In this document: positions 25,080 to 54,704 of the stretch, piece after piece
Layout of the letters: every line of letters begins with the position of its first letter
How positions within the stretch are numbered: position 1 is the stretch's first letter
Assembly (NCBI RefSeq): GCF_002213415.1
Contig: NZ_NJGU01000008.1
Coordinates: forward strand, 124,001 to 188,000
Length of the DNA stretch: 64,000 bases
Source of the DNA: Herbaspirillum robiniae
GTDB lineage: Bacteria > Pseudomonadota > Gammaproteobacteria > Burkholderiales > Burkholderiaceae_D
Reading direction: 5' to 3'
The notes under the pieces: model-generated
What the model was told of the DNA's origin: nothing
The model's input: only the letters and a program-made list of their open reading frames with translations
Databases searched by the model: none
Program-made: the position numbers and the translations under genes

Positions 25080-25133
25080 GCTATTCATCCCCCGAATTTT
25101 CCTCCGATGCCCAGGGGCGTCGGGAGTCCTATC

Positions 25134-28156: not shown

Positions 28157-28160
28157 ACCC

Positions 28161-34120: not shown

Positions 34121-34379
34121 TATGGCCTCCGTTGGCAAGTTGGCCCATTGACTTGATTTTTGATTATCGAAGCGGAGCCGGGATCGCGCAGTCGGCCTTT
34201 GGATGAAGGCGATGTAGGAATGTGGCTTTCATACGGCTCGCTCAAAATACTGGCCTCAATGCGCCGAAAGCTCGTCTTGAGACTAGGGCCCTTCTTCGAT
34301 TTTTTTAGGGCATCAGGGGCGGCACTCCTTTCCGTGCCATTGCCAGAACTTTGCATCTCTCTAGCGACGGAGAAATTTG

Positions 34380-37603: not shown

Positions 37604-37812
37604 TAAACTCCCCTTCAACGAATAAGTACCAACATCGCGGCCGTACGCCGCATCTTTACTCACTGCTCCCTGCCACCCCTTGTGGAAGGAAGGTGATGGT
37701 TCCGGGCGCCCTGCCGCCGCATGGTCGGCTGGCGAAGGCTGGCCGGGTGGCCCGTGATCGGGCGGTATTTGTTCCACCTATGGATCAACGTTCCACAAAA
37801 TTCATCGGGCTC

Positions 37813-38810: not shown

Positions 38811-38835
38811 GAATGCCACTTCCAGATAAAGAACT

Positions 38836-39276
38836 TCAGGAAACCACTTCTTGCACCGCTTGCCGCAGGTCCACGCCCAGCCGCGCGAAGGCGTCGGCCT
38901 CGACCGTCAGCTCGGGGAACACCAGGCCGCTGACCTCGACCAGCGTCGAGCACGGATACGGCGCCTCGAAGAAGTCGCGGCGCGCGCGCCCGACCTCATC
39001 CTTGTCGCCGATGTCCTTCACGTAGATCACCAGCTTGTAGATGCAGCCGATGTTGCCGCCGGCCGCCTCCACCAGGTCGCGCACCTTGCCCAGCACCACC
39101 AGCGTCTGCTCGTAGGTGCCGAGCTTGCGGTCACGCGAGGCCGGGTGCGCGGTCATGCCGGACATCGCGATCTCGTCGCCGATCACCAGGCAGTTGGACC
39201 AGGTCGCCGTCGCCAGCTCGGCCACCTTCGCGGTCTTCACGTGGCGCACTGCCGACTTGCCGGATGCCTCGCTCAT
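38836..39276 (-). CDS. RidA/YjgF family protein, possible 2-aminomuconate deaminase-like
   Basis: The 146-residue protein has the RidA fold signature: IAMSGMTAH near 36-45, the long helix TLVVLGKVRDLVEAAGGN, and VIYVKDI. The C-terminal motif reads YPCSTLVEVSGLVFPELTVEADAFA. In archetypal RidA the residue before S/T here is an Arg that holds the imine substrate; this protein has Cys-Ser instead, so it belongs to a divergent Rid group. 2-Aminomuconate deaminases (AmnD/NbaF) are in this superfamily, and the neighbouring extradiol dioxygenase and aldehyde dehydrogenase would fit such a pathway. The start overlaps the stop of the Rieske gene (ATGA). Confidence 0.85.
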   Translation of the reverse strand: MSEASGKSAVRHVKTAKVAELATATWSNCLVIGDEIAMSGMTAHPASRDRKLGTYEQTLVVLGKVRDLVEAAGGNIGCIYKLVIYVKDIGDKDEVGRARRDFFEAPYPCSTLVEVSGLVFPELTVEADAFARLGVDLRQAVQEVVS

Positions 39277-40322: not shown

Positions 40323-40362
40323 TTCTGGTCTCTCCTGTTGGCTGGCGCTGGTCGCGGATGGC

Positions 40363-40596
40363 TCACGCGGCCAGGCGGGCGATTTCTTCCTGGTAGTTCT
40401 GTTCGGTCCACACGCCGCCGTTGTAGGGGCAGCTCGGGCCGGTGCGGTTCAGGTGCGCCACCAGGGCGTCCAGTTCATGCACGCCGGCGGCGTAGGCGCG
40501 CTCGATGGAGTCGCCCAGCAGGTCTTCATACTGGGTCGGCGGGCGGCGGCGCGCCTGGTGCGGATTGAGATAAACGTCTGTGACTGTTGCAACCAT
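40363..40596 (-). CDS. Small protein in Rieske operon (77 aa)
   Basis: Two ATGs (40599, 40596) follow GGAGG; I use the second for better spacing. The protein (MVATVTDVYLNPHQARRRPP...IARLAA) is soluble, with the helical stretch YEDLLGDSIERAYAAGVHELDALVAHLNRTG near 23-53 and a C-terminal GVWTEQNYQEEIARL. Its start overlaps the stop of the 110-residue gene, so they are coupled, and it ends 41 bp before the Rieske start. I do not recognise the family; a role in oxygenase assembly or regulation is a guess. Confidence 0.7.
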   Translation of the reverse strand: MVATVTDVYLNPHQARRRPPTQYEDLLGDSIERAYAAGVHELDALVAHLNRTGPSCPYNGGVWTEQNYQEEIARLAA

Positions 40597-40928
40597 CATT
40601 GGCCTCCATTTCTGACGCGCTCGCGGATACGCTCACGCACGGGAACAAAATCGTAGCTGGGGTAGCATTCGGTGCGGAACACGCCCCATGCCGAGCGTTC
40701 GAGCTCGACGTTGACCAGCGGCAGCAGCGCCGGCGGCAGTTCCAGCGTGACGATCTGGCCCAGGCCCATGGCCACGGTCCACGACACCACGCGGGTGCCT
40801 TCGACGGGAAAGCGCTCCCACCAGTCCATCTTCTTCATGTGCGACTGGATGTCTTCCAGGTTCTTGGACTGGTCATGCTTCAACACGATGGTCAGCAGCA
40901 TGGTGTCCGGCTGTTTCTCTTGGCTCAT
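40596..40928 (-). CDS. Small alpha/beta-barrel-like protein (110 aa)
   Basis: This protein starts MSQEKQPDTMLLTIVLKHDQ and has a ferredoxin-like strand/helix pattern: MLLTIVLKHDQS, a helix NLEDIQSHMKKMDWWERF, then RVVSWTVAMGLGQIVTLELP and WGVFRTECYPSYDF. It resembles dimeric alpha/beta-barrel proteins (muconolactone-isomerase or ABM-like), but no catalytic residue can be named. The ATG follows GAGATGAGCC at the end of a tight spacing after the monooxygenase gene. Function unknown. Confidence 0.7.
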   Translation of the reverse strand: MSQEKQPDTMLLTIVLKHDQSKNLEDIQSHMKKMDWWERFPVEGTRVVSWTVAMGLGQIVTLELPPALLPLVNVELERSAWGVFRTECYPSYDFVPVRERIRERVRNGGQ

Positions 40929-40942
40929 CTCGACTCCGGGCG

Positions 40943-42097
40943 TCAGGCGGTCGCGACTTCGGGTTCCGGCTGCAGCGGCACCTTCCAGGCGTCGTAGCCG
41001 TACACCCAGTCGGCGTTGCCGCCTTCGCGCAGCCAGTTGTTGCCGCGCGAACCGATCTGTATCTTCGAGGCGCGCGCCATGCGCAGCTGCTCATAGACAT
41101 GCAAGGACCTTGCCACCTCGTCCAGCGTCGAGACGGTGACCAGGCAGCGCGCAAGCACCACCGCGTCTTCGATGGCCATGCCGGCGCCCTGCGCCATGAA
41201 AGGCATCATCGGGTGGCAGGCATCGCCCAGCAGCGCCATGTTGCCCTTGGCCCAGGCCGGCAGCGGATCGCGTTCGTACAGCGCGGTCTTGAGCACTTCG
41301 TCGCAGGCGTCCAGCAGCGCCGTGGCGTCGGGGTGGAAGCCGGCGTAGCTGTCGCGCAGTTCCTGCACGCTGCCCGGGGTGGTCCAGGACTCCAGGTGCC
41401 AGGTCTCCTGCGCGGTGGTGGCGAAGATGAAGATGTCCTCGCCGCGATTGAGCGGGAAGGTGACGATCTGGCTTTCCGGGTTGGGGCCCCACCACTTGGT
41501 GAAGGCCTGCAGGTTGGGCACGCCGGCCACCTTGTGCGCCGGCACCACCGCGCGGAACGCCACCACGCCGGTGAAGCGCGGCTTCTCGGCGCCGAACATC
41601 GCGGTGCGCACGGCCGAGTGGATGCCGTCGCCGCCGATCAGCACGTCGACGCGGTCATGGCTGCCGTCGGCGAATGCCAGTTCGATGCCGGCGGCAGTCT
41701 GCTCCACCTTCTCGGCGCGCTTGGCGAAGCGCACCTGCTCCAGCGGGAACACCTCGGCAAGCGCGGCCAGCAGGTCGGCGCGATGGATGGTCAGCTGCGG
41801 CGCGCCGTATTTCTGTTCGGCGGTGTCGCCCATGGCCAGGCGCGAGGTTTCCTCGCCGGTGTTCCAGGTGCGGCTGATGCGGTGGGTCGGGCGCGCGGCG
41901 GTCTTGCGCACGGCTTCGCCGATGCCAAGGCCGTCCAGCGCGCGCACCGCGTTGGGCGTCAGGTTGATGTCGGCGCCCACGCGCAGGAACTGCTTGGACT
42001 GCTCGTACACCACCACCTCGTGGCCGGCGCGCTGCAGGGCGATGGCGGCGGTCAGGCCGCCGATGCCGGCGCCCAGGATTCCGATCTTGAAGGACAT
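40943..42097 (-). CDS. FAD-dependent aromatic monooxygenase (salicylate/6-hydroxynicotinate type)
   Basis: The start at 42097 follows AGAGGAAAGCAC and gives 384 residues. GILGAGIGGLTAAIALQRAGHEVVVYEQ is the N-terminal FAD dinucleotide fold (residues 5-32), DVLIGGDGIHSAVR is the DG motif near 150-163, and LLGDACHPMMPFMAQGAGMAIEDAVVL near 280-306 is the second FAD motif. These place it in group A flavin hydroxylases (salicylate 1-hydroxylase, NicC). It uses NAD(P)H and oxygen to hydroxylate or decarboxylatively hydroxylate a ring. It is flanked by the ring-cleavage dioxygenase. The ring substrate is unknown. Confidence 0.92.
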   Translation of the reverse strand: MSFKIGILGAGIGGLTAAIALQRAGHEVVVYEQSKQFLRVGADINLTPNAVRALDGLGIGEAVRKTAARPTHRISRTWNTGEETSRLAMGDTAEQKYGAPQLTIHRADLLAALAEVFPLEQVRFAKRAEKVEQTAAGIELAFADGSHDRVDVLIGGDGIHSAVRTAMFGAEKPRFTGVVAFRAVVPAHKVAGVPNLQAFTKWWGPNPESQIVTFPLNRGEDIFIFATTAQETWHLESWTTPGSVQELRDSYAGFHPDATALLDACDEVLKTALYERDPLPAWAKGNMALLGDACHPMMPFMAQGAGMAIEDAVVLARCLVTVSTLDEVARSLHVYEQLRMARASKIQIGSRGNNWLREGGNADWVYGYDAWKVPLQPEPEVATA

Positions 42098-42120
42098 GTG
42101 CTTTCCTCTTTGCTGTGAGC

Positions 42121-43092
42121 TTATTTGCCGGCCGGCGCGCGATCGGTCAAGAACTTGCCGCTGGGGCCTTGCGCATTCTTCTGGCGGCGCGTGTTGCCGT
42201 CGATGCCGCCGTCGATGGCCCATTCGGCGAACACCGTCGGGCCCGGCTCGAAGTCGCGCGGCTCCCAGTGCTCGTCCAGCTGGTCTTCGTCGGCGTAGTA
42301 CTCGATCAGGCCGCCGGCCGGGTTCTTGAAGTACCAGAAGTAGGCCGAGGAAATCGGATGGCGGCCGGGGCCGAGCTGGGTGTCCCAGCCGCTGCGCGAC
42401 ATGTGCATGCCGCCGCCGAACACCTCATGGATGTCGCGCACGGTGAAGGCCACGTGGTTCAGGCCCGAGCGCGCCTCCGGCGGTTGCAGCAGGAAGATGT
42501 CGTGGTGGCCGCCGACGTCGGCGCAACGCAGGAAGGCGCCACGCTCCGGATAGCGGTCGGACGGCACGAAGCCGAAGTTCTCGCAGTAGAACTTCTCGCA
42601 AGCCTTCACGTCCTTGACGAAGAACACCACGTGGCCGACCTCGATCGGCGCGGCGCGCTCGTAGACCGGGCTGCGTTCGTTGATGCGGTTCTTCTCGTTC
42701 CAGGTATTCATGCGTGCGCACTGCACCTGCACGTCGCGCTTGACCGAGACCTGGAAGCGCACCGCCAGGCCGTTGGGATCGGTGCAGCCGACGCGCTTGC
42801 CGTCGTTGATGTAACCCTGCAGTTGCTTGATGCGGCCGGCGAACTTGTCCAGCACCGCGTCCGACGACACGCCCCACACCACTTCACGCAGGGTCGGGCC
42901 GGCTTCGATGGCCGGCGGCAGGCTGGGATCGCCGCTGTCGCGCACGATCACGCGGCAGCCGTTCTGCGATTCGAACACCAGCTCGGCGGCGCTCTGCTGC
43001 GCCAGCACCATGCCCCAGTCGAGGAAGAACTGGCGGCACTTGGGCAGGTCGTCCGCGCCGTAGATGATTTCGTCGATACCTAATACGTCCAT
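42121..43092 (-). CDS. Extradiol ring-cleavage dioxygenase (VOC superfamily)
   Basis: From the ATG at 43092 (behind AGGAGAAGCAC) the protein has 323 residues and two VOC modules. The C-terminal module carries the Fe(II) ligands expected of type I extradiol enzymes: His in EVGHVVFFVKD, His in LNHVAFTV and Glu in GLIEYYADE. The N-terminal module (VLGIDEIIYGADDLPKCRQFF) lacks them, as in the family. It would open a catechol or aminophenol ring next to the hydroxyl group and make a muconate semialdehyde. The aldehyde dehydrogenase is 20 bp upstream. Confidence 0.9.
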   Translation of the reverse strand: MDVLGIDEIIYGADDLPKCRQFFLDWGMVLAQQSAAELVFESQNGCRVIVRDSGDPSLPPAIEAGPTLREVVWGVSSDAVLDKFAGRIKQLQGYINDGKRVGCTDPNGLAVRFQVSVKRDVQVQCARMNTWNEKNRINERSPVYERAAPIEVGHVVFFVKDVKACEKFYCENFGFVPSDRYPERGAFLRCADVGGHHDIFLLQPPEARSGLNHVAFTVRDIHEVFGGGMHMSRSGWDTQLGPGRHPISSAYFWYFKNPAGGLIEYYADEDQLDEHWEPRDFEPGPTVFAEWAIDGGIDGNTRRQKNAQGPSGKFLTDRAPAGK

Positions 43093-43112
43093 GTGCTTCT
43101 CCTGATTCCTGT

Positions 43113-44606
43113 TCATTGCGAGGCCGGCAGGCCGGCCCACGGCAGCGGCTGTTCGTTCATGCCCCAGTACATGGCCTTCTGCTCCATGTATTGCAGGATG
43201 CCCAGCCGGCCCTTCTCGCGGCCCAGGCCGCTGTCGCGCCAGCCGCCGAACGGCGTCGAGATCGAAAACTGCTTGTAGGTGTTGATCCAGACATTGCCGG
43301 CCTGGACCGCGCGGCCGATGCGCCACGCCTTCTTGTAGTCGCGCGTCCAGATGCCGGCGGCCAGCGCGTAGACGCTGTCGTTGGCCTGTTCGATCAACGC
43401 TTCTTCGTCGTCGAAGGGCATGGCCACCAGCACCGGGCCGAAGATCTCTTCCTGGCAGATGCGCTGGTCGTTGGTCACGCCTTCGATGATGGTCGGGGTG
43501 TAGTAGTAGCCGCGCTCGAAGGCCGCGCCCTGCGGACGCGTGCCGCCGGTGCGGATGCGGCCGCCGTCGGTGATGCCGATGTCGACGTAGCGCTCGATGC
43601 CCTCGCGGTGGCGCGCGGTGATCAGCGGCCCCATCTGGGTGCGCTCGTCGGCCGGGTCGCCCACGCGCAGTGCGGCCGCGCCGGCGGCCAGGCGTTCCAT
43701 GAAGCTGTCGTACACGCCGCGCGCCACGAACAGGCGCGAACCGGCGATGCAGGACTCGCCCGAGCTGCTGAAGATGCCGTACAGCACACCGGCCACCGCG
43801 TGGTCGAGGTCGGCGTCGTCGAACACCATCGTGGGCGACTTACCGCCCAGCTCCAGCGAGACCGGCATCATTTTGTCGGCGGCGATGTGGGCGATGTGCT
43901 TGCCGGTAGTGGTGCCGCCGGTGAAGGACACGCGCTTGACCAGCGGATGCAGGGTGATGGCGTCGCCGATCACCGAGCCTTTGCCCGGCAGCACGCTGAT
44001 CAGGCCCGCCGGCACGCCGGCTTCGATGCAGATCTTCGCCAGTTCCAGCGCGGCCAGCGGCGTGACCTCGGCCGGCTTGACCACCACCGCGTTGCCGGCG
44101 GCCAGGGCCGGCGCCATCTTCTGCGCTTCGCTGGCGATCGGTGAATTCCACGGCGTGATCGCGGCCACCACGCCCATCGGTTCGTAGACGCTCATGGTGA
44201 GGTTGTCGCCGCGCATGGGGGTGATCGTCTCCTCCAGCGTTTCGCAGGCGGCGGCGAAGAACTGGAAGGTGCCGGCGGCGCTGGCCACCAGGTTGCGCGT
44301 CTCGGTAATCGGCTTGCCGTTGTCCAGGCGCTGCAGTTGGGCCAGCTCCTCGCCGCGTTCGCGGATCAGCTGGGCCACGCGGTACAGCACGGCGGCGCGC
44401 TCATGCGGTTTCTTCTGCGCCCAGCCGCTGGTGCGGAAGGCCAGGTCGGCGCCGGCGATGGCTTCCTCGACGTCGGCCACGCTGGCCGCGTTCAGGTGCG
44501 CCACCGCTTCGCCGGTAGCCGGGTACAGCGTGGCGTAGCGGTCGCCGCCGCCTAGGCGCCATTGGCCGGCTACGCAGATGGGCAGGGTCTCGTTCAGGTT
44601 CATCAT
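43113..44606 (-). CDS. Aldehyde dehydrogenase, semialdehyde type
   Basis: The 497-residue NAD(P)-dependent enzyme carries ITPWNSPI near 155, GKSPTMVFDDADLDHAV with the general base Glu in VSLELGGKSP near 255, the catalytic Cys in SSSGESCIAGSRL near 290, and EEIFGPVLVAMPFDDEEAL near 388-406. Two ATGs (44606/44603) are possible. Close position to the extradiol dioxygenase and RidA suggests oxidation of a 2-amino- or 2-hydroxymuconate semialdehyde. The sequence alone does not separate these from succinate- or betaine-aldehyde types. Confidence 0.9.
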   Translation of the reverse strand: MMNLNETLPICVAGQWRLGGGDRYATLYPATGEAVAHLNAASVADVEEAIAGADLAFRTSGWAQKKPHERAAVLYRVAQLIRERGEELAQLQRLDNGKPITETRNLVASAAGTFQFFAAACETLEETITPMRGDNLTMSVYEPMGVVAAITPWNSPIASEAQKMAPALAAGNAVVVKPAEVTPLAALELAKICIEAGVPAGLISVLPGKGSVIGDAITLHPLVKRVSFTGGTTTGKHIAHIAADKMMPVSLELGGKSPTMVFDDADLDHAVAGVLYGIFSSSGESCIAGSRLFVARGVYDSFMERLAAGAAALRVGDPADERTQMGPLITARHREGIERYVDIGITDGGRIRTGGTRPQGAAFERGYYYTPTIIEGVTNDQRICQEEIFGPVLVAMPFDDEEALIEQANDSVYALAAGIWTRDYKKAWRIGRAVQAGNVWINTYKQFSISTPFGGWRDSGLGREKGRLGILQYMEQKAMYWGMNEQPLPWAGLPASQ

Positions 44607-44622
44607 GTCCGGTTCAACTCGA

Positions 44623-45423
44623 TCAGATCGACAGCGCGTGGGCACGGTTGCCCAGCGCGCGCACCACGCTGTACACGGTCAGCGCGGATGTCTTGGGATT
44701 GGCCGCCAGCGGCTTGCCGCGCATGGTCAGCTCGAAGCCGCCGAAGGCGCCTTTGGCTTCCACGTGGTGCACGTTCTCGGTGACGCCGGGGTCGGCGTAC
44801 AGGCGCACCCGGGTCTGATCCAGCCCCAGGCCGGCCAGCGACAGCGTGGCGGCGACGTTGGCGTTCTTGGGATACAGGCGCGCGGCTTCGCGGGCGCTGC
44901 CTTCGAAGATCACCGTGGCTTCCTTCAGGCCGACCAGGTCGAAGGGGCCGTCGGCCGGCGTGTCCTTCCAGGCCTGCGGCGGCTTGCGGCCGGTGTAGAC
45001 CACCGACTCCAGCCCGCCCACCTTGGCCGCGGACAGCGCGTCGATGGCGCCGATCGCGCCCGACAGCAGCTGGACCTGGGTCTTGCCGGCGCGGGCAGCG
45101 GCCTCCAGCTTTTCCACCAGGCCCGGTTCGGACAACGCGCCGATCGACACCACCATGCAGGGGATGCCGCGTTCCAGCGCGGGGATGATGTGCTCGCCGA
45201 TGGCCTGGTGGCCGGCGCACTCGATCAGCAAGTCGGGCCGCTCGTCGCCCAGGCGCGTGACCACCTTGGCCGCCGGCGCCAGCGAGGACACCACGCCGCG
45301 CGCGCTGTCCATGTGCGCCTCGGGCACCACCACCATGTCGAAGGCGACCTCGGGATCGCACTTCAGGATCTCCATCACGCCGGCGCCGATGGCGCCGCAA
45401 CCGATCATCGAAACGTGCAGCAT
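44623..45423 (-). CDS. L-aspartate dehydrogenase-like protein
   Basis: The 266-residue protein starts MLHVSMIGCGAIGAGVMEIL (NAD-binding Rossmann fold), followed by ECAGHQAIGEHIIPALERGI and LSGAIGAIDALSAAKVGGL near 135-155, then YTGRKPPQAWKDTPA and a C-terminal NVAATLSLAGLGLDQT with VTENVHHVEAKGAFG, which match the aspartate dehydrogenase family (NadX type). The family oxidises or makes L-aspartate with NAD(P)H and ammonia, or acts on related imino acids. Inside a catabolic operon it might handle the amino group released from the ring. Tight spacing (16 bp from ALDH) supports co-expression. Confidence 0.88.
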   Translation of the reverse strand: MLHVSMIGCGAIGAGVMEILKCDPEVAFDMVVVPEAHMDSARGVVSSLAPAAKVVTRLGDERPDLLIECAGHQAIGEHIIPALERGIPCMVVSIGALSEPGLVEKLEAAARAGKTQVQLLSGAIGAIDALSAAKVGGLESVVYTGRKPPQAWKDTPADGPFDLVGLKEATVIFEGSAREAARLYPKNANVAATLSLAGLGLDQTRVRLYADPGVTENVHHVEAKGAFGGFELTMRGKPLAANPKTSALTVYSVVRALGNRAHALSI

Positions 45424-45433
45424 GACCGGCTCC

Positions 45434-47158
45434 TTATGCCGCCGTGGCGGCGTTGGTGGCGGCTTCGACCACGGCGGCGGCGGCAGCGGCGGCCTTTTCC
45501 TTCTCGTTGACCGGCGGGCCGGCGAAGGCGGTCTTGAAGCTGCCGATGGAGAGCATGTCGATCTCCAGCAGGAACGGGCCCTTCTGCGACAGCGCCTCGT
45601 CCAGGCCGGCGGCGACGTCGGCGAGATTGCTGATGCGCTTGTGACGCAGCTTCAGCGCGGCCGACAGCTGTTCGTAGTCCGGCGTGTGCAGGTCGACGTA
45701 ATGACGGCGGCCGCCGTATTGCACGTCCTGGATGTTCTTGATGACGCCGTAGCCCTTGTCGTTCATCAGCACGATGACCATGTCGGCCTGCTCTTGGACC
45801 GCGGTGGCGAGTTCGCCCAGGTTCAGGATGAAGCCGCCGTCGCCGGCCAGGGTGAAGGTCTTCTTGCCCGACTGCGTGACGGCCGCGCCGATGGCCGCGC
45901 CGATGCCCATCGCCAGGCCCTGGCCGATGCCGCCGCCCAGCGCATGCACGCCGGCGCGCGGATCGAAGATGCGCAGGTAACGGTTGCCCCAGGTGCTGTT
46001 GGAGACGGTGACGTCGCGCACCCAGTTGAATTCGCGGCCGGCCGCCTTCTGCAGTTGCTCGACCAGCGCGCTGTAGGGGCCGAGACCATCGACCAGGCCG
46101 CCCACGGCGGTGTCGCGCGCCTTTTTCAGGTCGCCCATGAAGGCCGGGTCGACCTTGAGTGCGGCCAGGCGATCGGCCAGGCCTTGCAGCACCAGCGCGG
46201 AGTCGCCGCAGACGAAGTAGTCGCTGGTGTAGCAGCGGCCTTCGGCGGCCGGGTCGGCGTCCACGCGGTACAGCGGGCGCGGCAGCTTCAGTTCGTACTT
46301 CAGGGTCTCGTTGCCGCGCAGGCGCGAGCCGATCACCAGCATGGCGTCGCAGCTCTGGTAGAAATTCTCGACCGGCTTGTGCAGGTTGAAGGCGCCCAGC
46401 GAACGCGGATCGTCTTCGGCCACGATGCCGCGGCCCTGGGTGCTGGTGACCACGCCGAAGCCGAGTTGCAGCAGGCGCTCCACCTGTGCGCCGGCATGGC
46501 GCGCGCCGCCTCCCAGCCACAGCAGCGGACGCTTGGCCTTTAGCAGGCGCTCGGCCAGTTCGTCGAGGGCGCGCTCGGAGGGCACGTTCTGCGGGATTGC
46601 CAGCGGCTGCAGGTCGGACGGCATGGGGATCAGCGCGGCCTGGATGTCGATGGGGATTTCCACCGACACCGGCCCCATCGGCGGCGTCAGTGCGGTCTGC
46701 ACGGCCAGCTTGATGGTGCTTACCGCGGTCTCCACGCTGCGGATGCGGAAGGCGGCCTTGGAGATCGCCTTCAACATGGTCAGCTGGTCCGGCGCCTCGT
46801 GGATATAGGCCAGGCTCTGGTCGAGGTAAGGCGTTTCGATCTGGCCGGTCAGGTGCAGCAGCGGGGTGCCGGCGGTCAATGCTTCGACCATGGCGCCCGC
46901 GGCGTTGCCGGCGGCAGTGCCGGTCGAGGTCAGGCATACGCCCAGGCCACCGGTGGTGCGGGCGCAGGCGTCGGCCATGTTGGCGCCGCCGGCTTCGCCG
47001 CGCGCCGGGATGAAGCGGATCTTGCCGCGCTCGCCGAAGGCGTCGAGGATCGGCATGTTGTGGATCGAGATCACGCCGAACGCCGCCTTGACGCCGACTT
47101 GCTCGAGGAAGGCGGCGATGGCGCAGCCCACGGTTACTTGGTTGGTGGTATTAGGCAT
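45434..47158 (-). CDS. Thiamine diphosphate-dependent enzyme (decarboxylase/lyase type)
   Basis: The start at 47158 overlaps the upstream SDR stop; the 574-residue protein has the three domains of acetolactate synthase/benzoylformate decarboxylase-type enzymes. Residues about 10-170 (FGVISIHNMPILDAFGE, the catalytic Glu region ARGEAGGANMADACAR near 48-63, and CLTSTGTAAGNAAGAM) form the Pyr domain. FTLAGDGGFILNLGELATAVQ near 425-445 is the ThDP/Mg2+ motif (GDG...N-like). The C-terminus is alanine-rich. It could decarboxylate a 2-oxo acid late in the pathway or ligate two; the reaction is not predictable here. Confidence 0.85.
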   Translation of the reverse strand: MPNTTNQVTVGCAIAAFLEQVGVKAAFGVISIHNMPILDAFGERGKIRFIPARGEAGGANMADACARTTGGLGVCLTSTGTAAGNAAGAMVEALTAGTPLLHLTGQIETPYLDQSLAYIHEAPDQLTMLKAISKAAFRIRSVETAVSTIKLAVQTALTPPMGPVSVEIPIDIQAALIPMPSDLQPLAIPQNVPSERALDELAERLLKAKRPLLWLGGGARHAGAQVERLLQLGFGVVTSTQGRGIVAEDDPRSLGAFNLHKPVENFYQSCDAMLVIGSRLRGNETLKYELKLPRPLYRVDADPAAEGRCYTSDYFVCGDSALVLQGLADRLAALKVDPAFMGDLKKARDTAVGGLVDGLGPYSALVEQLQKAAGREFNWVRDVTVSNSTWGNRYLRIFDPRAGVHALGGGIGQGLAMGIGAAIGAAVTQSGKKTFTLAGDGGFILNLGELATAVQEQADMVIVLMNDKGYGVIKNIQDVQYGGRRHYVDLHTPDYEQLSAALKLRHKRISNLADVAAGLDEALSQKGPFLLEIDMLSIGSFKTAFAGPPVNEKEKAAAAAAAVVEAATNAATAA

Positions 47159-47975
47159 GGCGGGAAAGTCCTCCTGAAACATCGATATGGCTGCCTGTTG
47201 TGTACGAGGAAAGCGGCGAAGCGAGAAACAGAATCGCGCGCGCGGCTTCCTGGGGAAGGCCGAGACGGCCGAGTTGGATATTCTTTTTCTGCGCCAGCGC
47301 AGCGGCCCATTGCTGCCAGCTCTGGTCTTGCTGTTCGGGAGGACGCGCCTGGTAGCGGCGGCGCCACTGGCCGGATTCGACCAGCCCGATCAGGATGCCG
47401 TTGACGCGCACCCGGGGCGCGTCGCCATTGGCGAATTCGGTGGCCAGCGAACGCACCAGGTTGTGCACGCCGGCGCGGGCGGCGGAAGTGGCCACCATGT
47501 GCGGCTCGGGCTGGGTCGCCAGCAGCGAATTGACGCAGACGATGGCGGCGTCGCCGTGCGCCGCGCTGCTCTTCTGCAACTGCGGCAGGAAGGCGCGGGT
47601 CGGGTAGATCACCGAGAAGAACTTCAGCCGCAGCTCTTCGCTCCAGGCCTCGTCGGCGGTGTCGGCGAAGGTCGAGACGCGACCCTGGCCGGCGTTGTTG
47701 ACCAGCATGGCGACCGGGCCGAGCTCGCGCTCGACGGCGGCGGCGAAGGCCTGCACCTGTTCCTGCGACAGCACGTCGCAGGTCGCGGTGTACAACCGGG
47801 CCTGCGGGAAGCGCTCGCGCAGCGCGGCCTCGGCCTGTTGCAGGCGGTCGGCGTCTCGGCCGCAGAAGGCGACGGCGGCGCCGGCCTCCAGCAGCTGCTC
47901 GACGGTGGCCAGGCCGATGCCCGACGAACCGCCGGTGACTACCGCCACCTTGCCTTGAAGGGAAGTCATGGCCAT
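47151..47975 (-). CDS. SDR-family protein lacking canonical YxxxK
   Basis: The 274-residue protein has the Rossmann T-G-G-S-S-G-I-G motif near residue 15 and NNAG near 95. The catalytic Ser is present (VCVNSLLATQPEP), but the positions 13 and 17 residues on, where Tyr and Lys are expected, are Thr and Arg (ATSAARAG). It may therefore have altered or no dehydrogenase activity. It lies between IclR and the ThDP gene, with an 8-bp overlap with the latter. A role in the operon is likely but undefined. Confidence 0.85.
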   Translation of the reverse strand: MAMTSLQGKVAVVTGGSSGIGLATVEQLLEAGAAVAFCGRDADRLQQAEAALRERFPQARLYTATCDVLSQEQVQAFAAAVERELGPVAMLVNNAGQGRVSTFADTADEAWSEELRLKFFSVIYPTRAFLPQLQKSSAAHGDAAIVCVNSLLATQPEPHMVATSAARAGVHNLVRSLATEFANGDAPRVRVNGILIGLVESGQWRRRYQARPPEQQDQSWQQWAAALAQKKNIQLGRLGLPQEAARAILFLASPLSSYTTGSHIDVSGGLSRHA

Positions 47976-47976: not shown

Positions 47977-48813
47977 TCAGCTCCGCCATATGTTGACGAC
48001 CTTGCCGTCCGACTTCTCGGGCGAATGGTCGAGCAGGCGCGACAGTTCGCCGGCGGTGTCGCGCACGCGGGCGACGATGCCGTCCAGCTGGCTGGCCTCG
48101 ATGTGCGGCGACGGAATGGTGGCGCCCATGGCCGCCACCACCAGGCCGGAGTGGTCGCGCACCGGCGCGGCCACGGTGGAGATGCTGGTCTCGAAGAAAC
48201 CTTCCTGCAGCACGAAGCCGCGCTCCTTGTCGGCCTGGACCATGTCGAACAGCTCGACCACGGTCTTGGGCGTGTTGCTGGAGAAGACCTCCAGGTGCTC
48301 TTCCGGATACAGCTCGCGCAGTTGCGGCAGGGTCAGGTCTTCCAGCAGCACGCGGCCCAGCACGGTGGCATGCGCCGGCAGGCGGGTGCCGACATTGACG
48401 TGGCTGGTGAAGGCGGTCTGGGTGACCGCCTTGGCGACGTAGACGATGGAGCGGCCGTCGCGCACCACCAGGTTGCAGGAGTAGCCGATCTCGTTGCGCA
48501 GGCGGTCCAGCAGCGGGCGGCCGATCTCGGTCAGTTCCAGCGAGGCCAGGTATTCGAAGCCCAGGCGCAGCACCGACATGCCCAGGCGGTATTCGCGGCC
48601 GCCGTCGGTGCGCTCGACAAAGCCCATGCGCTCCAGCGTGGCCAGCAGGCGAAACACGGTCGAACGCGGCACGTCCAGGCGGCGCGCCAGCTCGGGCGCG
48701 CCCAGGGTCTTGTCCTGGCGGCTGAATTCGCACAGCAGGCGCAGGCCGCGTTCCAAGCCGGGCACGGAATACTTGTCTTGCGATTCTTCTTCTGGCAGCA
48801 CTGGTTTGTTCAT
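47977..48813 (-). CDS. IclR-family transcriptional regulator
   Basis: The 278-residue protein has an N-terminal winged HTH (PGLERGLRLLCEFSRQDKTLGAPELARRLDVPRSTVFRLLATLERMGFV, about 18-66) and a C-terminal effector domain (IVYVAKAVTQTAF and VAAMGATIPS). IclR proteins often control aromatic catabolism as repressors or activators. Its gene is embedded in the operon between the alpha/beta hydrolase and the SDR, with tight spacing. Its likely target is the promoter region at about 53,860-53,980, where repeats with the GTTCCATATATAAAC core occur; that link is inference. Confidence 0.92.
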   Translation of the reverse strand: MNKPVLPEEESQDKYSVPGLERGLRLLCEFSRQDKTLGAPELARRLDVPRSTVFRLLATLERMGFVERTDGGREYRLGMSVLRLGFEYLASLELTEIGRPLLDRLRNEIGYSCNLVVRDGRSIVYVAKAVTQTAFTSHVNVGTRLPAHATVLGRVLLEDLTLPQLRELYPEEHLEVFSSNTPKTVVELFDMVQADKERGFVLQEGFFETSISTVAAPVRDHSGLVVAAMGATIPSPHIEASQLDGIVARVRDTAGELSRLLDHSPEKSDGKVVNIWRS

Positions 48814-48834: not shown

Positions 48835-49695
48835 TTATTCGGATTGTTCGCGGATCAGCGCCGCGAAGGCCGCCGGCTGTTCGATGTAGCAGGCGTGGCC
48901 GGCGGCATCCACCAGCCTGAAGGGCAGCGCGTGGCGTTGCGCCAGCTGCTCGCTGGCCTGCGGCGTGGTTACCACGTCCAGCGCGCCGCAAGCCACCGAC
49001 AGGCCCTGCCGCGGCGCCACGCTCAGGTAGCCGTCGATATCGTCGCCGCACAGCAGGTGCACGGCCTGGGTGTAGCCGGCCGGATCCAGCCATTGCATGT
49101 TCCAGCACACCCAGGCGTGATGGACTTCGGCGGCGTGCTCCGACAACAGGCGCGAGCGCTTGGCGGCCATACCTTCGATGCCCAACGCGGCCAGCGCGCC
49201 CAGGCGCTCCTGTTCCACTTCGCGCGCACGTTCGCGCTTGCCCGGCGCGCCGTAGCCCTGCGCCGGATCGGCCAGCAACACGCGCCGCGCACGGCGGTCG
49301 CCGCCGGCAAGATAGGCTGCGGCCATCAGCGCCCCCAGCGAGTGGCCGACCAGCACGCAGTCGGTGATCTCCAGCGCGCGCAGCATCTGCTGCAGCCGCG
49401 CGGCGTAGTCGGACGCCTTCGGACGCGCCATCGGCAACGGCGTCGAGCGGCCGTAGCCGGGCGCGTTCCAGGCGATCACGCGGGCGCCCGCCTCCAGCCT
49501 GAGCGCGCACTGCAACCAGGATGCGGCCCCCGAGCTGATCCCGTGCAGCAGCACCACCGCCGGTCCCGTGCCGCAGCTGCGGTAGGAGGCCACGCCGCCG
49601 TCGACGGCGACGGTGCGTTCGGCGAAACGGCCTTCCAGCAGCGCGAGCTGGTCCTTCAGCTCTTCGGCGCAGGTGACGGTGGCGGATGCGTTCAT
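48835..49695 (-). CDS. Alpha/beta hydrolase
   Basis: The 286-residue protein has GPAVVLLHGISSGAASW near 44-60 (oxyanion-hole HG), CVLVGHSLGALMAAAYLAGG near 114-133 (nucleophile Ser in G-H-S-L-G), a late Asp, and the catalytic His in DAAGHACYIEQP near 263-274. It could hydrolyse a C-C or ester bond, for example a ring-cleavage product or an ester of the substrate, as in MhpC-like enzymes. It is placed between the cupin and IclR genes in the operon. No signal peptide is seen, so it is cytoplasmic. Confidence 0.88.
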   Translation of the reverse strand: MNASATVTCAEELKDQLALLEGRFAERTVAVDGGVASYRSCGTGPAVVLLHGISSGAASWLQCALRLEAGARVIAWNAPGYGRSTPLPMARPKASDYAARLQQMLRALEITDCVLVGHSLGALMAAAYLAGGDRRARRVLLADPAQGYGAPGKRERAREVEQERLGALAALGIEGMAAKRSRLLSEHAAEVHHAWVCWNMQWLDPAGYTQAVHLLCGDDIDGYLSVAPRQGLSVACGALDVVTTPQASEQLAQRHALPFRLVDAAGHACYIEQPAAFAALIREQSE

Positions 49696-49714
49696 GGCGT
49701 GGAGGTCGGTGCGA

Positions 49715-50251
49715 TCAGCGCTTGATCGAGGCCAGCGGATGTTCCGGTGGATAGGTCGGGGTGATGGGCTTCTTGGCGCCCAGCATCACGCACATCAGCG
49801 CGTCTTCGTCGCCGATGTTGATCTCTTCGCGGTACACGCCCGGCGGCACCGACACCACGTCGCGGTCAGTCAGGATGGTTTCGAAGCGCTCGCCGTCCTT
49901 TTCCAGCACCAGCTTCAACTTGCCGCGCAGGACGAAGAACACTTCCTCGACGTCGATGTGCAGGTGCGGCGGGCCTTCGTGGCCGGCCGGGATGATCATG
50001 GTCGAGAAGGTGAAGTGCTCGGACGGGATGACGTTGGTGTCGTGCGACACGCCGGTGCCGCCGGTGCCGATGTAGCGCATCTGCGCGCGGCGGAACTTGG
50101 GGTCGTAGTCGGCCTGGAACTTCAGCGCGTTCCAGTCGTACTTGCGCGTGGACAGGCGCGCCACGCGCGACTCCATCCAGTCGGCGAAGCTGGCGCCTTC
50201 GGGGCGATCCCAGCTCCGGGCGATGTTTTCTTGTTCGGACATGTCGGTCAT
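49715..50251 (-). CDS. Cupin-domain protein
   Basis: From the ATG at 50251 (behind AAGGAGAACAGC) the protein has 178 residues. The cupin core includes MIIPAGHEGPPHLHIDVEEVFFVLRGKL near 88-115 (metal-binding His pair and Glu) and the second motif VPPGVYREEINIGDED near 137-152, which has no His in the usual place. It could be a metal-dependent oxygenase or isomerase. The aromatic-type N-terminus (SWDRPEGASFADWMESR) is shared by some gentisate-type proteins, but I cannot name the substrate. The frame upstream of this start is shadow. Confidence 0.85.
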   Translation of the reverse strand: MTDMSEQENIARSWDRPEGASFADWMESRVARLSTRKYDWNALKFQADYDPKFRRAQMRYIGTGGTGVSHDTNVIPSEHFTFSTMIIPAGHEGPPHLHIDVEEVFFVLRGKLKLVLEKDGERFETILTDRDVVSVPPGVYREEINIGDEDALMCVMLGAKKPITPTYPPEHPLASIKR

Positions 50252-50283
50252 GCTGTTCTCCTTGCAATAAATGATGGAAAGCC

Positions 50284-51054
50284 TTAGTTGAGGACAAAAC
50301 CGCCGTTGACCGCCATCACCTGTCCGGTGAAGAAGCGCGACATGTCCGACAAGGCGAACACGACGGCGCCGCACACGTCCTCCGGCAACTGGTCGCGCTG
50401 GATGGCGCGGCGGTCGAAATAGGTCTGGTGGCGCGCCTGCGGCACGTACTCGGTGGCCTCCACCAGGGTCAGGCCGGGTGCCACCGCGTTGACGGTGATG
50501 TTGTCGCCGCCCAGCTCGCGCGCCAGCGAACGGGTCATGCCGATCACCGCGCTCTTGCTGGCGACATAGGCCAGCAGATTGGGCGCGCCCCACAGCGGTG
50601 TGTCCGACGACAGGTTGACGATGGCGCCGCGGCCCGAGGCGCGCAGCGCCGGCAGGCAGGCGTTGGTCATCAGCCAGGTGCCGCGCACGTTAACATCCAT
50701 GACGCGGTCCCACATCTCCACTTCCAGCTGTTCGCTGCTCTTGCCGCCGGAATTGGTGATGGCGGCGTTGTTGACCAGGCCATCCAGGCCGCCCAGCCAG
50801 CCGGTGGCGGCGGCGACGCAGGCCTTGATCGATGCCGGATCGGCCAGGTCGACGGCGAAGCCTTCGACCTTCAGGCCGCGCTCTTTCAGCGCGGCCACCG
50901 ACTTGCCCAGCTGTTCCTGCAGAATGTCAGCCATGGCCACGGCGGCGCCCGCTTCGGCGATGGCGGCGACGAACGCCAGGCCGAGGCCGCGCGCTGCGCC
51001 AGTGACCAGAATGCGCCGTCCCGCCAAAAGGGTTGCCGTGCTTGCTACGGACAT
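50284..51054 (-). CDS. Short-chain dehydrogenase/reductase
   Basis: The 256-residue protein has the cofactor loop GAARGLG near 19-25, NNAAITNSGGKS near 91, the catalytic Ser in VNLSSDTPLW and the Tyr/Lys pair in YVASKSAV near 157-164, all intact, unlike the SDR at 47151. The C-terminus (TGQVMAVNGGFVLN) is typical of the classical SDRs. It probably oxidises or reduces a ring-diol or side-chain hydroxyl. It lies between the cupin and the ABC permease. Confidence 0.9.
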   Translation of the reverse strand: MSVASTATLLAGRRILVTGAARGLGLAFVAAIAEAGAAVAMADILQEQLGKSVAALKERGLKVEGFAVDLADPASIKACVAAATGWLGGLDGLVNNAAITNSGGKSSEQLEVEMWDRVMDVNVRGTWLMTNACLPALRASGRGAIVNLSSDTPLWGAPNLLAYVASKSAVIGMTRSLARELGGDNITVNAVAPGLTLVEATEYVPQARHQTYFDRRAIQRDQLPEDVCGAVVFALSDMSRFFTGQVMAVNGGFVLN

Positions 51055-51078: not shown

Positions 51079-51927
51079 TCAGACGGTGCTGGTATTGGCT
51101 TTGGGCAGGTAATGCAGGACACGGCGTTCGGCCCATACCACCACGCCATAGGTAACCACGCCGATCAGGGTCAGCGCCACGATGGAGACGAACACGGCGG
51201 CAGTGTTGCCCTGCCCTTCGCCGTCCACCAGCAGGTAACCCAGGCCCTGGTTGCCGCCCACCAGTTCGCCCACGGTCACGCCGATCACCGACAGCGTGGA
51301 GGCGATGCGCAAGCCGGAGAACAGCGCCGGCAAAGCGGAGCGGAACTCGACCAGCTGGAAGATCTGCCAGCGGCCGGCGTTGAGCGTGCGCACCAGGTTG
51401 ACCATGTCGGGGTCGACGGTGCGGATCGCGGAGAGCACGTTGATCATGATCGGGAAGAACACGATCAGTACCGCGACGATGATCTTGGGATAGATGGTGT
51501 AGCCCAGCCACATCACGAACAGCGGCGCGAAGGCCACCTTGGGCGCGATCTGCAGCGCCAAGATGTAAGGCGAGAGCATGGCCTCGGCGCGCGGCGACAG
51601 GCCCAGGGCCACACCCACGGCCAGGCCCAGCAGAGCGCCGAAGAAAAAGCCCAGCACTACTTCCATGGCGGTGATACCGAAGTGCTGCAGCAATTGGGCG
51701 TTGTTCCACATCACCACCGATTCGCGCACCACCTGCATGAAGTTGGGCAGGATGTATTCGGGCATGCCCAGCAAACCCGGACCCCATTGCCAAGCGGCGA
51801 TGAACAACACCAGCAGGGCCAGGCTGCCGCACACGGTGCGGGCTTTTTCGGTGATCGCCGGACGGCGCGCTGGTACGGCGGGCTCGGGGGTGGGCATGGT
51901 CAGGTCTTTCGCTGTCGTGGTATTCAT
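51079..51927 (-). CDS. ABC transporter permease (NitT/TauT type)
   Basis: The 282-residue membrane protein has an N-terminal helix (TVCGSLALLVLFIAAWQWG) and about six transmembrane segments. The permease signature loop is near 165-200 (LSAIRTVDPDMVNLVRTLNAGRWQIF), where EAA-like contact with the ATPase lies. It belongs to the taurine/nitrate/sulfonate family. It is the partner of the binding protein (51930) and ATPase (52976), and its gene starts two bases after the binding-protein stop. Confidence 0.92.
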   Translation of the reverse strand: MNTTTAKDLTMPTPEPAVPARRPAITEKARTVCGSLALLVLFIAAWQWGPGLLGMPEYILPNFMQVVRESVVMWNNAQLLQHFGITAMEVVLGFFFGALLGLAVGVALGLSPRAEAMLSPYILALQIAPKVAFAPLFVMWLGYTIYPKIIVAVLIVFFPIMINVLSAIRTVDPDMVNLVRTLNAGRWQIFQLVEFRSALPALFSGLRIASTLSVIGVTVGELVGGNQGLGYLLVDGEGQGNTAAVFVSIVALTLIGVVTYGVVVWAERRVLHYLPKANTSTV

Positions 51928-51929
51928 GA

Positions 51930-52925
51930 TTACTTCGCCACTCCGACGAACTGATTGGTAAACAGGTCGTTGACCGGCGTGGCCTTGGTGACGATGCCTT
52001 CGCTCACGTAAAACTTCTGCACCGCGTCCATGCGGCCAGAGTCGATCTGGCCCAGGGTCTTCTGGTTGGCGTAGACGTACTTGTTGTACATCTCGAAGGT
52101 GGACTGAATGCTGGCTTCCTTGCCCTTGTAAGTGGGCAGTGCGGCGACGTAGTCGTCGGCGGCGGCCTTGGGGTCCTTCATGATGTCCTGCATGCCGCGC
52201 AGGGTGGCGCGCACCAGCTTCTTCAAAAGCTCGGGGTTCTTCTTGATGGTGTCGTCGGAAGCCAGGATGGCCTGGGCCATGCTCTTGAAGCCGCCGTTGT
52301 CGAGCAGCTCGACCTTGGCGCCGGCGTCAGTGGAGTTGACCACCCAGTCAGGCACACCGGCGAAGGCCGACGATTTGCCTGAGGTGAACAGCTGCCACAC
52401 GCCTGCCGGTCCGGCGGCCTGGATCTGCACGTCGGTCTTGGTCAGGCCGGCGGTCTTCAGGCTACCGAGGAAGGCGTAATAGGTGGTGTCGGTATAGGAC
52501 ATGACGGTGACGGTCTTGCCCTTCAGGTCCTTCAGGCCCTTGATGCCGTCAGCCGGGTTGGCCGCGACCATGGTCACGGAGCCGGCGCCCAGCACAGCGA
52601 TGGCCTTCACGGGAATGCCGTTGGCGCGTACCACGATCGGGGTGTCGCCGATGGCGCCGCCGATGACGGCGTTGCCGGCGCCGATCTGCTTGGCGACGTC
52701 GACGCCGCCCTTGGCCACGATGAAACTGACCTTCAGGTTTTCGTCGGCGTAGTAGCCCTTGTGCTGGGCCAGCACCCAGGGCGCGAAGGCCGGCGAGTTC
52801 GGCGGGGCAGGCAACAGGTAAGTAACTTCTTCCGGTGCGGCGTGGGCAACGGCAGGCACGACGGCGGCGCCGATGGCGGCGGTCAGGGCCAGCGCGCTAC
52901 AGGCGGATGCGAACAATTTTTTCAT
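51930..52925 (-). CDS. ABC transporter substrate-binding protein (SsuA/NMT1-like)
   Basis: The 331-residue protein has a signal peptide (MKKLFASACSALALTAAIGA..., cleaved near AVAHA) and the mature start APEEVTYLLPAPPNSPAFAPW. GYYADENLKVSFIVAKGGVDVAKQIGAGNAVIGG is typical of NMT1/SsuA-like receptors for sulfonates, pyrimidines or aromatic acids. It captures substrate in the periplasm. The family spectrum is wide, so the ligand is unknown, but its place as the second gene of the catabolic operon suggests it binds the pathway substrate. Confidence 0.92.
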   Translation of the reverse strand: MKKLFASACSALALTAAIGAAVVPAVAHAAPEEVTYLLPAPPNSPAFAPWVLAQHKGYYADENLKVSFIVAKGGVDVAKQIGAGNAVIGGAIGDTPIVVRANGIPVKAIAVLGAGSVTMVAANPADGIKGLKDLKGKTVTVMSYTDTTYYAFLGSLKTAGLTKTDVQIQAAGPAGVWQLFTSGKSSAFAGVPDWVVNSTDAGAKVELLDNGGFKSMAQAILASDDTIKKNPELLKKLVRATLRGMQDIMKDPKAAADDYVAALPTYKGKEASIQSTFEMYNKYVYANQKTLGQIDSGRMDAVQKFYVSEGIVTKATPVNDLFTNQFVGVAK

Positions 52926-52975: not shown

Positions 52976-53761
52976 TCAGTGCAGCTCGGCGGTTTCCTTG
53001 CCCACTTTGAGCAGTTCCATCAGGCGCCCTTGCAGTGGTCCGATTTCGGGCAGCTTGCGACGCTCCAGCGGGTTGTCGCGGAACGGCAGGTCGACTGTGA
53101 TTTCCTCGACGATGGTGCCGGGACGCTCGCTCATGACCAGCAGGCGATCCGACAGGGCGATGGCTTCCACCAGGTCGTGGGTAATGAAGAGCGCGGTCTT
53201 CTTTTTCTCGTAGAGCATCTTGGCCAGGTCTTGCTGCAGCACCATCTTGGTCTGCGCATCCAGCGCCGAGAACGGCTCGTCCAGCAGCAGCACCTGGGGA
53301 TCAACGGCCAGCGTGCGAGCTAGTGCGGCGCGCTGGCGCATGCCGCCGGAGAGTTGGTACGGATAGTGCTCCTCGAAGCCCTTGAGATGGCACTTGGCCA
53401 GCAGCTCGTCGGCGATGCGGCGGCGCTCGGCCTGGGCCATGCCATCGATCTCCAAGCCGAGGGTGACGTTGGCGCGGATATTGCGCCATGGCATGAGCAG
53501 ATCCTTTTGCAGCATGAAGGCGACCTTGCGCACCGGCTTGGTCACCTTCTCGCCGCCGACGAAGACTTCGCCTTCGGTAGGCAGGTACAGGCCGGCGCCC
53601 ATGTTGAGCAGAGTGCTCTTGCCGCAGCCGGAGGGGCCGATGATGGAGACCACCTCGCCACTCTTGATGGACAGGTTAACGTTGGTGACGGCAGCGCGGG
53701 GTTGCGCCGTCTGGCGGTCGACGAAGCTCTTGCCGACCTTGCGGAATTCGATTTCGATCAT
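52976..53761 (-). CDS. ABC transporter ATP-binding protein (NitT/TauT type)
   Basis: The 261-residue protein (ATG at 53761 behind AGAGGCAAC) has Walker A GPSGCGKST near 44-52, the Q-loop MLQKDLLMPW near 83-92, the signature LSGGMRQRAALART near 139-152 and Walker B VLLLDEPFSALDAQT. It energises the importer. It is the first gene of the operon. An upstream in-frame stretch extends 141 codons but overlaps the promoter palindromes and is non-coding. Confidence 0.94.
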   Translation of the reverse strand: MIEIEFRKVGKSFVDRQTAQPRAAVTNVNLSIKSGEVVSIIGPSGCGKSTLLNMGAGLYLPTEGEVFVGGEKVTKPVRKVAFMLQKDLLMPWRNIRANVTLGLEIDGMAQAERRRIADELLAKCHLKGFEEHYPYQLSGGMRQRAALARTLAVDPQVLLLDEPFSALDAQTKMVLQQDLAKMLYEKKKTALFITHDLVEAIALSDRLLVMSERPGTIVEEITVDLPFRDNPLERRKLPEIGPLQGRLMELLKVGKETAELH

Positions 53762-53863
53762 GTTGCCTCTGCTGATTGGCCTGGCGCCTTGTGGCGCCCC
53801 AGCTATTCTTCCCGGCTTGCCGCTTCTATCGAGCGGGTGTCTCCAGCCGGGCACCGAAACGTT

Positions 53864-53973
53864 CCATATATAAAACAACAATTTATATATGGGAGATATG
53901 TGCATTGAATATAGCAGATATTCCCGAACAAAATGATCTATTTTGTTCCATATATAAACTGATGATTTATATA
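53864..53973 (-). promoter_or_regulatory. Paired inverted repeats upstream of catabolic operon
   Basis: CCATATATAAA (53864-53874), a 7-bp spacer and TTTATATATGG (53882-53892) form a perfect inverted repeat. A second one, CCATATATAAA (53948-53958) with 7-bp spacer and TTTATATA (53966-53973), follows 84 bp further, eight helical turns. Both arms sit in the sequence GTTCCATATATAAA, which resembles IclR-type half-sites. They lie 100-210 bp before the first gene of the operon. These are probably regulator sites, with DNA looping possible. Confidence 0.65.
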
Positions 53974-54704
53974 AAAACCGTTTTCCCTTTTCAAAGCAAT
54001 GTATGTGCCAGGCTGAAAGCGCCGTTTCAGCGTGGATTTCCCCAGCGCCGCGCACCAAACGGGTTCGCAGAAAGCCGCGCAGGTGCAAAAAGCGCCCAAC
54101 TTTAAACTTGTCGCGTAAAGGAAACGAACGGGCGGAGCCGCACGCCCTCGGAGTCTCGTTATTGAGTTGAGTGCAGATTTGCACCCGCTATTTCCCCAAC
54201 CTGCCATTGCTACCAAAGGTGTCATGTGGATCGTGCGATCCTAATACCCCACCTCTTTCAAGTCCGGGATAGCTACTTTGGGGTCTTCTTTGCTGGCAGG
54301 GCTGGAGGCTGCCGAATGCACTGCTCCGAGCGATGGAACGCCTTGCGATATGTGAGGGGCGGCTCACTTGGGTGCGAATACAGCGAGGGACTATGTTGCG
54401 TCGGGCGCCAAGCCTAGGGCGGGCGCCCTTTTTGATCAAAATGCGCTCTTTGATATACAAGCGCCGAACAATTCCTAGTAAGCGCGCATTACTATCTGCG
54501 GCCCTCTCCCTCCCAGCTCTGTGGGAGCTCATGGCCTGAACATGAAATAACTATGGAGCAGCTTCCGGCAAAGCTAGGAAGTTTTCAGCCGGCACAACAG
54601 CTGCGACAGGGAAGTCTCCGATATATGAAGTCAGCTTTCGGCCAGAAGCAGACGTTCCCTACTAGGAGGAAGATGGAGGCATCAGCTCCACACAGAGCTA
54701 GCCG
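53974..54704. other. Gene-free gap between operon promoter and cytochrome c gene
   Basis: This 731-bp stretch shows no convincing gene on either strand; short open frames lack ribosome-binding sites and similarity. It holds the hairpin AGCTC-TGTGG-GAGCT near 54518-54532 and the third CGGCCAGAAG repeat copy at 54640. Its sequence looks like decayed DNA. Confidence 0.5.
54640..54657 (+). repeat. Dispersed CGGCCAGAAG repeat, copy 3
   Basis: CGGCCAGAAGCAGACGTT matches copies at 30151, 34473 and 61616. It lies in the gap upstream of a minus-strand cytochrome c gene end. Translated on the plus strand the repeat reads GQKQTF-like, a pattern common in dubious ORFs of proteobacterial genomes. Confidence 0.45.

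Follow-up and report, generated by a model that had tools for sequence, protein, structure and literature searches.

Gene content of the locus

The window, by which we mean the whole 64,000-nucleotide stretch of Herbaspirillum robiniae DNA that was analysed, carries on its minus strand a catabolic operon of roughly 16 kb. An ABC transporter ATPase is encoded by its first gene, and an iclR-type regulatory gene lies inside it:

52976-53761, minus strand: ABC transporter ATPase, first gene
51079-52925, minus strand: ABC substrate-binding protein (51930-52925) and permease (51079-51927)
48835-51054, minus strand: SDR (50284-51054), cupin-like protein and alpha/beta hydrolase (48835-49695)
47977-48813, minus strand: IclR-family regulator, the candidate binder of the repeats described below
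43113-47975, minus strand: SDR, thiamine-diphosphate enzyme, aspartate-dehydrogenase-like protein and aldehyde dehydrogenase
37863-43326, minus strand: glyoxalase/dioxygenase-superfamily protein, FAD monooxygenase, Rieske oxygenase and ferredoxin-type reductase
36518-37777, minus strand: open reading frame of the porin gene, likely true start at ~37603

The cupin-like protein was named by eye and is without an NCBIfam match. Relatives of the operon occur in Herbaspirillum, Massilia, Pseudoduganella, Collimonas, Cupriavidus, Ralstonia, Variovorax and some Pseudomonas, and no paper on this enzyme set was found in the open-licence literature.

Pfam analysis of the regulator revealed the domains HTH_IclR (58.8 bits) and IclR_C (108.1 bits), both above the cut-offs. 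Its best NCBIfam match is TIGR02431 (PcaR/PcaU/PobR), with a score of 170.3 bits that lies below the cut-off of 284.75 bits and hence does not place the protein in that subfamily. The protein has relatives of solved structure, and orthologs that are 48-93% identical show strong conservation of its DNA-binding part.

Elsewhere in the window, a TnsD/TniQ protein is encoded at 22167-23966, and the neighbouring open reading frames at 24996-29498 resemble TnsA, TnsB and TnsC by position, without a Pfam match. All of these lie downstream of a glmS-like gene (17785-19602), and we take the segment 17785-29498 for a probable Tn7-like element, close to the site at which such elements usually insert. LigD (30486-33107) adjoins Ku (33104-34138), forming a bacterial end-joining repair pair (30486-34138).

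Two repeats lie upstream of the first gene

Two inverted repeats are found at 53864-53973, roughly 100-220 bp before the start of the ABC ATPase gene (53761):

Copy 1: left arm 53864-53874 CCATATATAAA, right arm 53882-53892 TTTATATATGG, 7-bp spacer, complementarity exact over 11 bp
Copy 2: left arm 53948-53958, the same as the left arm of copy 1, right arm TTTATATAAAA pairing at 8/11, 7-bp spacer

Copy 2 starts exactly 84 bp from the start of copy 1, and compared as a direct repeat the copies are identical at 24 of 29 bases (83%). The original prediction had given both repeats the same arm, a 7-bp spacer and a near-palindromic core. The spacer is indeed 7 bp in both copies and the core GTTCCATATATAAAAC pairs at 6 of 8 positions; the arms are as predicted in copy 1 and in the left half of copy 2, but not in the imperfect right arm of copy 2. 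Three further features had gone unmentioned: a 23-bp dyad (53926-53948), an extended -10 situated between the two copies and, upstream of them, a -24/-12 element.

We simulated 3000 sequences of 140 bp having the first-order composition of the same 140-bp region. Arms of at least 11 bp arose in 15 of the 3000, while neither a 24/29 direct repeat nor its combination with such arms arose at all (0/3000 each). Since the 11-bp arms and the 84-bp repeat never arose together, we consider the repeats to be real. Perfect arms of at least 11 bp with a spacer of at most 20 bp occupy two places in the window, copy 1 and 17062, and the paired pattern has a single occurrence in the 5.5-Mb genome, at this locus.

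The conserved unit is a tandem of 16-bp palindromes

Twenty-three stretches were fetched around iclR orthologs (L028-L050). We aligned the upstream regions of the 19 that have the ABC ATPase head and a syntenic operon (L028-L046) with that of the window, and found a common block of ~150 bp between divergent flanks. Each repeat consists of two 16-bp palindromes (GTTYCATATATGRAAC) whose centres are 19 bp apart, giving two modules, R1 and R2, whose positions relative to the candidate promoters described below are as follows:

53861-53895, minus strand: module R1, candidate tandem operator made up of site D (53861-53876) and site C (53880-53895), running from ~+7 to +41 relative to the extended -10 promoter
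53945-53979, minus strand: module R2, candidate tandem operator made up of site B (53945-53960) and site A (53964-53979), running from ~+6 to +40 relative to the -24/-12 promoter and from -78 to -44 relative to the extended -10 promoter

The 40 proximal sites (B and D) of 20 sequences gave the symmetrised consensus GTTTCATATATGAAAC; the distal sites A and C are weaker. Absence of the repeats before orthologous operons had been named beforehand as evidence against the original prediction. Both modules are recognisable in 20/20 aligned upstream regions.

The distance between the modules is 84 bp in 17, 83 in 4, 82 in 5 and 81 in 1 of 27 sequences, with a value for L046 of 80 or 81 depending on the anchor used. 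The predicted 84 bp is thus exact in the window but varies among its relatives, and a strict eight-turn phasing is not maintained. In eight relatives (L038-L045), the arm-to-arm complementarity of copy 1 falls to 5-7/11 and site C, placed like all sites by best score inside set ranges around the -10, scores from -2.6 to 8.1, whereas in every one of the 27 sequences site D still pairs at 5-7 of its 8 positions. Because the arm pairing of copy 1 is lost in these eight relatives while site D stays, what is conserved is not the proposed inverted repeat and its 7-bp spacer. The same decay weighs against a role of the inverted repeats as hairpins in the leader RNA. An 11-bp stem is possible in copy 1, and a match to the Rfam family rliA overlaps this copy (25.3 bits, E = 0.0098), yet that match is far under the gathering score of 50 and no other Rfam match passes; with arm pairing not conserved, we rejected the hairpin reading as very improbable.

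The four stretches without the ATPase head (L047-L050) stood outside the alignment. L047, whose IclR is 54% identical, also has a 19-bp pair, L048 has a pair just below threshold, and no qualifying 19-bp pair was found in the short contigs L049 and L050.

The tandem pair accompanies iclR

We ran the site matrix on 63 further named loci (L063-L127 minus L064 and L066, which belong to the matrix's own genus). L072 is the same genome as L046, leaving 62 loci independent of the matrix; the Herbaspirillum loci L051-L062 were left out of the count, being apparently the same genomes as part of L028-L045. With the reservation that the 63 loci were drawn from few genera and are counted as non-independent events, the best pair of positive-scoring sites within a spacing range of 12-60 bp was spaced 19 bp in 53/63, and a qualifying pair was absent in 10/63. 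Shuffled controls gave any pair in 7/315 and a spacing of 19 in 0/315. Pairs above 10 bits were found in 51/63 loci compared to 2/315 shuffled sequences. In Massilia, Pseudoduganella and two Pseudomonas the pair lies before the ABC ATPase; in Collimonas it lies before an SDR gene and at a second place 1.6-1.9 kb upstream; in Cupriavidus and Ralstonia pairs lie in regions before hydrolase, Rieske or porin genes. Since the pairs stand at such varied operon heads, the motif goes with the iclR gene. On four Cupriavidus contigs, two related iclR genes each were observed (L082/L096, L083/L111, L086/L104 and L100/L116): paralogous copies of this system exist.

Orthologs of iclR (E up to 1e-40) were found in 24 of 149 genomes and the strict operator pattern in 12 of 149, both counts including the window's own genome. 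All 12 belong to the window's genus and are among the 24 carriers, and the pattern is absent from the 125 genomes without an ortholog (0/125). The 12 carriers that lack it comprise nine with diverged modules (L038-L046) and three with another operon head. In G028, the strict-pattern match is on a different contig from the iclR match.

Single sites are another matter. The genome has 15 within 3 mismatches against 11 in a reversed control, hardly above background, and among the 10 of these 15 that were located, the 8 beyond the two studied here all lack a partner at 19 bp. Specificity resides in the tandem pair, and single sites alone mean little. A weak operator-like site upstream of the porin gene (37771-37786, minus strand, GATCCATAGGTGGAAC) is without a partner at 19 bp, and the best other site in the genome, on contig C27, sits inside a 272-aa open reading frame and was dismissed as a further operator.

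The sites are AT-rich and their cores differ between genera, as might be expected if another regulator, or simply AT-rich promoter DNA, stood behind the repeats. Against this, the outer letters GTTYC/GRAAC and the 19-bp spacing persist across the genera that share iclR, and the strict pattern is confined to genomes with an ortholog; we therefore regard such an origin as quite improbable. R1 and R2 are most likely conserved docking sites for the operon's own IclR-family protein, the binder named in the original prediction and one to which the half-sites, the 19-bp tandem spacing, the operon heads and the co-occurrence all point.

Two candidate promoters flank module R2

Two putative promoter elements and a dyad were located near the modules:

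53908-53916, minus strand: extended -10 TGCTATATT without a recognisable -35, predicted start ~53901
53996-54010, minus strand: sigma-54-type -24/-12 element TGGCACATACATTGC, predicted start ~53984
53926-53948, no strand assigned: dyad GAACAAAAT-gatct-ATTTTGTTC, 23 bp, between R2 and the -10

Start positions were assigned by the usual rules and standard geometry. Sigma-54 promoters follow the consensus YTGGCACG-N4-TTGCW with GG-N10-GC, and transcription starts 12 nt past the GC. A GG-N10-GC of this pattern occurs at one aligned place before R2 in 20/20 regions (CTGGCACATACATTGCT in the window); chance would yield ~0.013 matches to the relaxed pattern in 45 bp of a single strand, and in L038-L044 this pattern recurs 600 bp farther upstream. 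The -24/-12 element is absent from the Collimonas, Pseudoduganella and Massilia regions (0/7). The extended -10 between the modules reads TG[CT]TATATT in 19/20 aligned regions and in all 7 of the Collimonas, Pseudoduganella and Massilia regions. A search of 53700-54700 for a -35/-10 consensus pair gave none. The predicted promoters are 83 bp apart, R2 beginning at +6 of the sigma-54-type promoter and R1 at +7 of the extended -10 promoter.

The genome has one rpoN match (224.2 bits) and eight strong matches to enhancer-binding activators. A dedicated neighbouring activator was considered and set aside: none of the eight is on the window's contig, and among 100 relative loci only L107 has one. 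By eye, conserved sequences GGTGCA...GCACCGG and TTTGGTGA were seen upstream of the -24/-12 element, for example in L030 and L038, and could be sigma-54 activator sites. In L038, L040, L042, L043 and L044, an extra IclR-like palindrome (GTCTGAAATATGAGAC or similar) lies upstream of the -24/-12 element; it was not seen in the window, again by eye. The middle dyad takes a CAAAAA...TTTTTG-like form with a shifted centre in L038-L044 and the form CAAAAATC...GATTTTTG with wider spacing in L046, also judged by eye. As a group 2 IclR motif the dyad was rejected, its boxes being too far apart.

For other genera, promoter types were assigned visually in 28 stretches picked by hand. A TATA-like -10 precedes the pair in the Ralstonia, Variovorax and Pigmentiphaga stretches inspected and at one Cupriavidus head (L081b). 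The pair stands directly after a -24/-12 element in two Pseudomonas and one Aquincola, the only 3 of the 28 stretches with that element. The order is reversed, with the pair ahead of the -10, in L115 and in four Cupriavidus stretches whose -10s are TGCTAGTGT-like (L097, L102, L103 and L113). In Variovorax and Cupriavidus/Ralstonia stretches (L117, L121, L127, L103 and L115), an GGGTTTTCCCT-like element was seen by eye ~40-50 bp upstream of the tandem operator and is perhaps the site of another regulator.

Proposed regulation of the operon

Sites, spacing, conservation and co-occurrence with iclR can be read directly from the sequences; from these we infer binding by this IclR, repression, activity of either promoter and the existence of an inducer. 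The reading that we prefer, at slightly better than even chances, is one tandem IclR repressor operator per promoter, with two stacked promoters both repressed. The two 16-bp palindromes of each module, with centres 19 bp apart, would accommodate a pair of adjacent dimers or a single tetramer. R1 would serve the extended -10, -35-less sigma-70 promoter and R2 the sigma-54-type promoter 83 bp upstream. Without inducer, IclR would occupy both modules and block both promoters, and a pathway substrate or intermediate would release it; R2 may additionally act on the sigma-70 promoter from upstream.

The phasing of the repeats had originally been taken to suggest two dimers or a tetramer on one DNA face, perhaps with looping. 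In a repression loop, protein bound at R1 would meet protein bound at R2 across the promoter and the eight-turn phasing would be functional, which agrees with a spacing held to 81-84 bp in 27 sequences and with the -10 lying between the modules. However, spacings of 82 and 81 bp are 2-3 bp out of phase, just 49 bp lie between the modules, the two pairs found in Cupriavidus are roughly 150-380 bp apart (by subtraction), and IclR looping was not found in the open-licence literature. Fixed module-to-promoter distances explain the spacing equally well. Because such a spacing also results if each of two promoters, 83 bp from one another, has an operator, looping is not needed, and we think it improbable.

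A stronger rival is a dual regulator of the PcaU/PobR type, which at R2 (-78 to -44) would activate the -35-less extended -10 promoter in the presence of inducer and at R1 would repress it or act as a brake, the -24/-12 element being secondary or unused. The lack of a -35/-10 consensus pair in the region fits such activation, as does the distance from the -10 to site B, which is nearly fixed (47 in 22, 46 in 1 and 45 in 4 of 27 sequences) even where the -24/-12 element is missing. The five Cupriavidus or Ralstonia stretches with the pair upstream of an extended -10-like sequence (L097, L102, L103, L113 and L115) fit it too, and the PcaR/PcaU/PobR subfamily is the top NCBIfam match, though below cut-off. 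But published members of this family act both ways, so subfamily is not decisive, and in Ralstonia, Variovorax and Pigmentiphaga the stretches show only a pair downstream of the -10, which suits repression. We hold a dual regulator to be possible though doubtful. Because R2 is kept in Collimonas and Pseudoduganella/Massilia regions that lack a -24/-12 element, it cannot serve a sigma-54 promoter only; this retention, together with the five stretches just named, favours an added or alternative upstream role for R2, perhaps activation.

Within the preferred arrangement of one repressor operator per promoter, a more specific form is that a single IclR shuts two holoenzymes, sigma-54 and -35-less sigma-70, through duplicate tandem operators at +6/+7, the 81-84 bp being the length of a promoter-operator repeat and not of a loop. 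We advance this form tentatively, as a minority expectation. If it is true, two-holoenzyme repression would join a specific substrate signal with the global sigma-54 signal. A putative regulator, its operator and two candidate promoters are now assigned to the catabolic operon, and the operator offers a handle for finding the inducer and hence the pathway. Should the sigma-54 half hold, the locus would be a clean system in which to study how an IclR protein, bound immediately downstream of a sigma-54 promoter, represses it directly. No case of IclR at sigma-54 promoters, or of direct repression just downstream of one, was found in the titles and abstracts of the open-licence literature, nor was a description of a doubled operator on stacked sigma-54/extended -10 promoters found in open-licence papers.

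Comparison with known systems

The glnAp1/glnAp2 promoters resemble the arrangement proposed here in that one operon has a sigma-70 and a sigma-54 promoter close together; to our knowledge, they have no IclR-type operator at each promoter. PcaU, PobR and PcaR, the closest NCBIfam match of the protein studied here, regulate the use of protocatechuate and 4-hydroxybenzoate. As described in the relevant passages of Suvorova and Gelfand (2021, PMC8222616), their operators have the form GTTCGAT..ATCGMAC, and those of PcaU and PobR include an additional external half-site.

The passages of the same study that deal with group 1 of the IclR family give the motif GKTYCRYW3-4RYGRAMC, with half-sites GKTYCRY/RYGRAMC and a length of 17-18 bp, and report tandem palindromes, centred 18-22 nt from each other, for 94 orthologous groups but not for all; control of aromatic catabolism and transport is frequent in this group (PMC8222616). 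The sites described here share with group 1 operators the GTTYC/GRAAC half-sites, the AT-rich core and the tandem spacing: the consensus agrees with GKTYCRY/RYGRAMC, the 19 bp of both modules falls within 18-22 nt, and the strict pattern co-occurs with its regulator (12/24 carriers, 0/125 others). They differ in their 2-bp core, shorter than W3-4, which makes them 16-bp sites (GTT-10-AAC), one base below the shortest form in those published passages, and in the presence of two tandem pairs 81-84 bp apart with a -24/-12 element beside one of them (PMC8222616). The main-text passages of that study, whose groups are listed in its supplements, name neither Herbaspirillum, Cupriavidus, Ralstonia or Variovorax nor sigma or RpoN.

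PheR, which acts on phenanthrene catabolism in Sphingobium, is likewise an IclR repressor of an aromatic operon, and its footprint at the start site, 44 bp long and reaching from -21 to +23, is similar in size to R1 and near it in place (passages of PMC13273656). Unlike the arrangement here, PheR has the core GCAACG and a single protected region, and sigma-54 is absent from those passages (PMC13273656). Judged by their sequence, the sites are of a known kind with a shorter core, and the stacked sigma-54 and extended -10 arrangement is plausibly a less usual variant of it.
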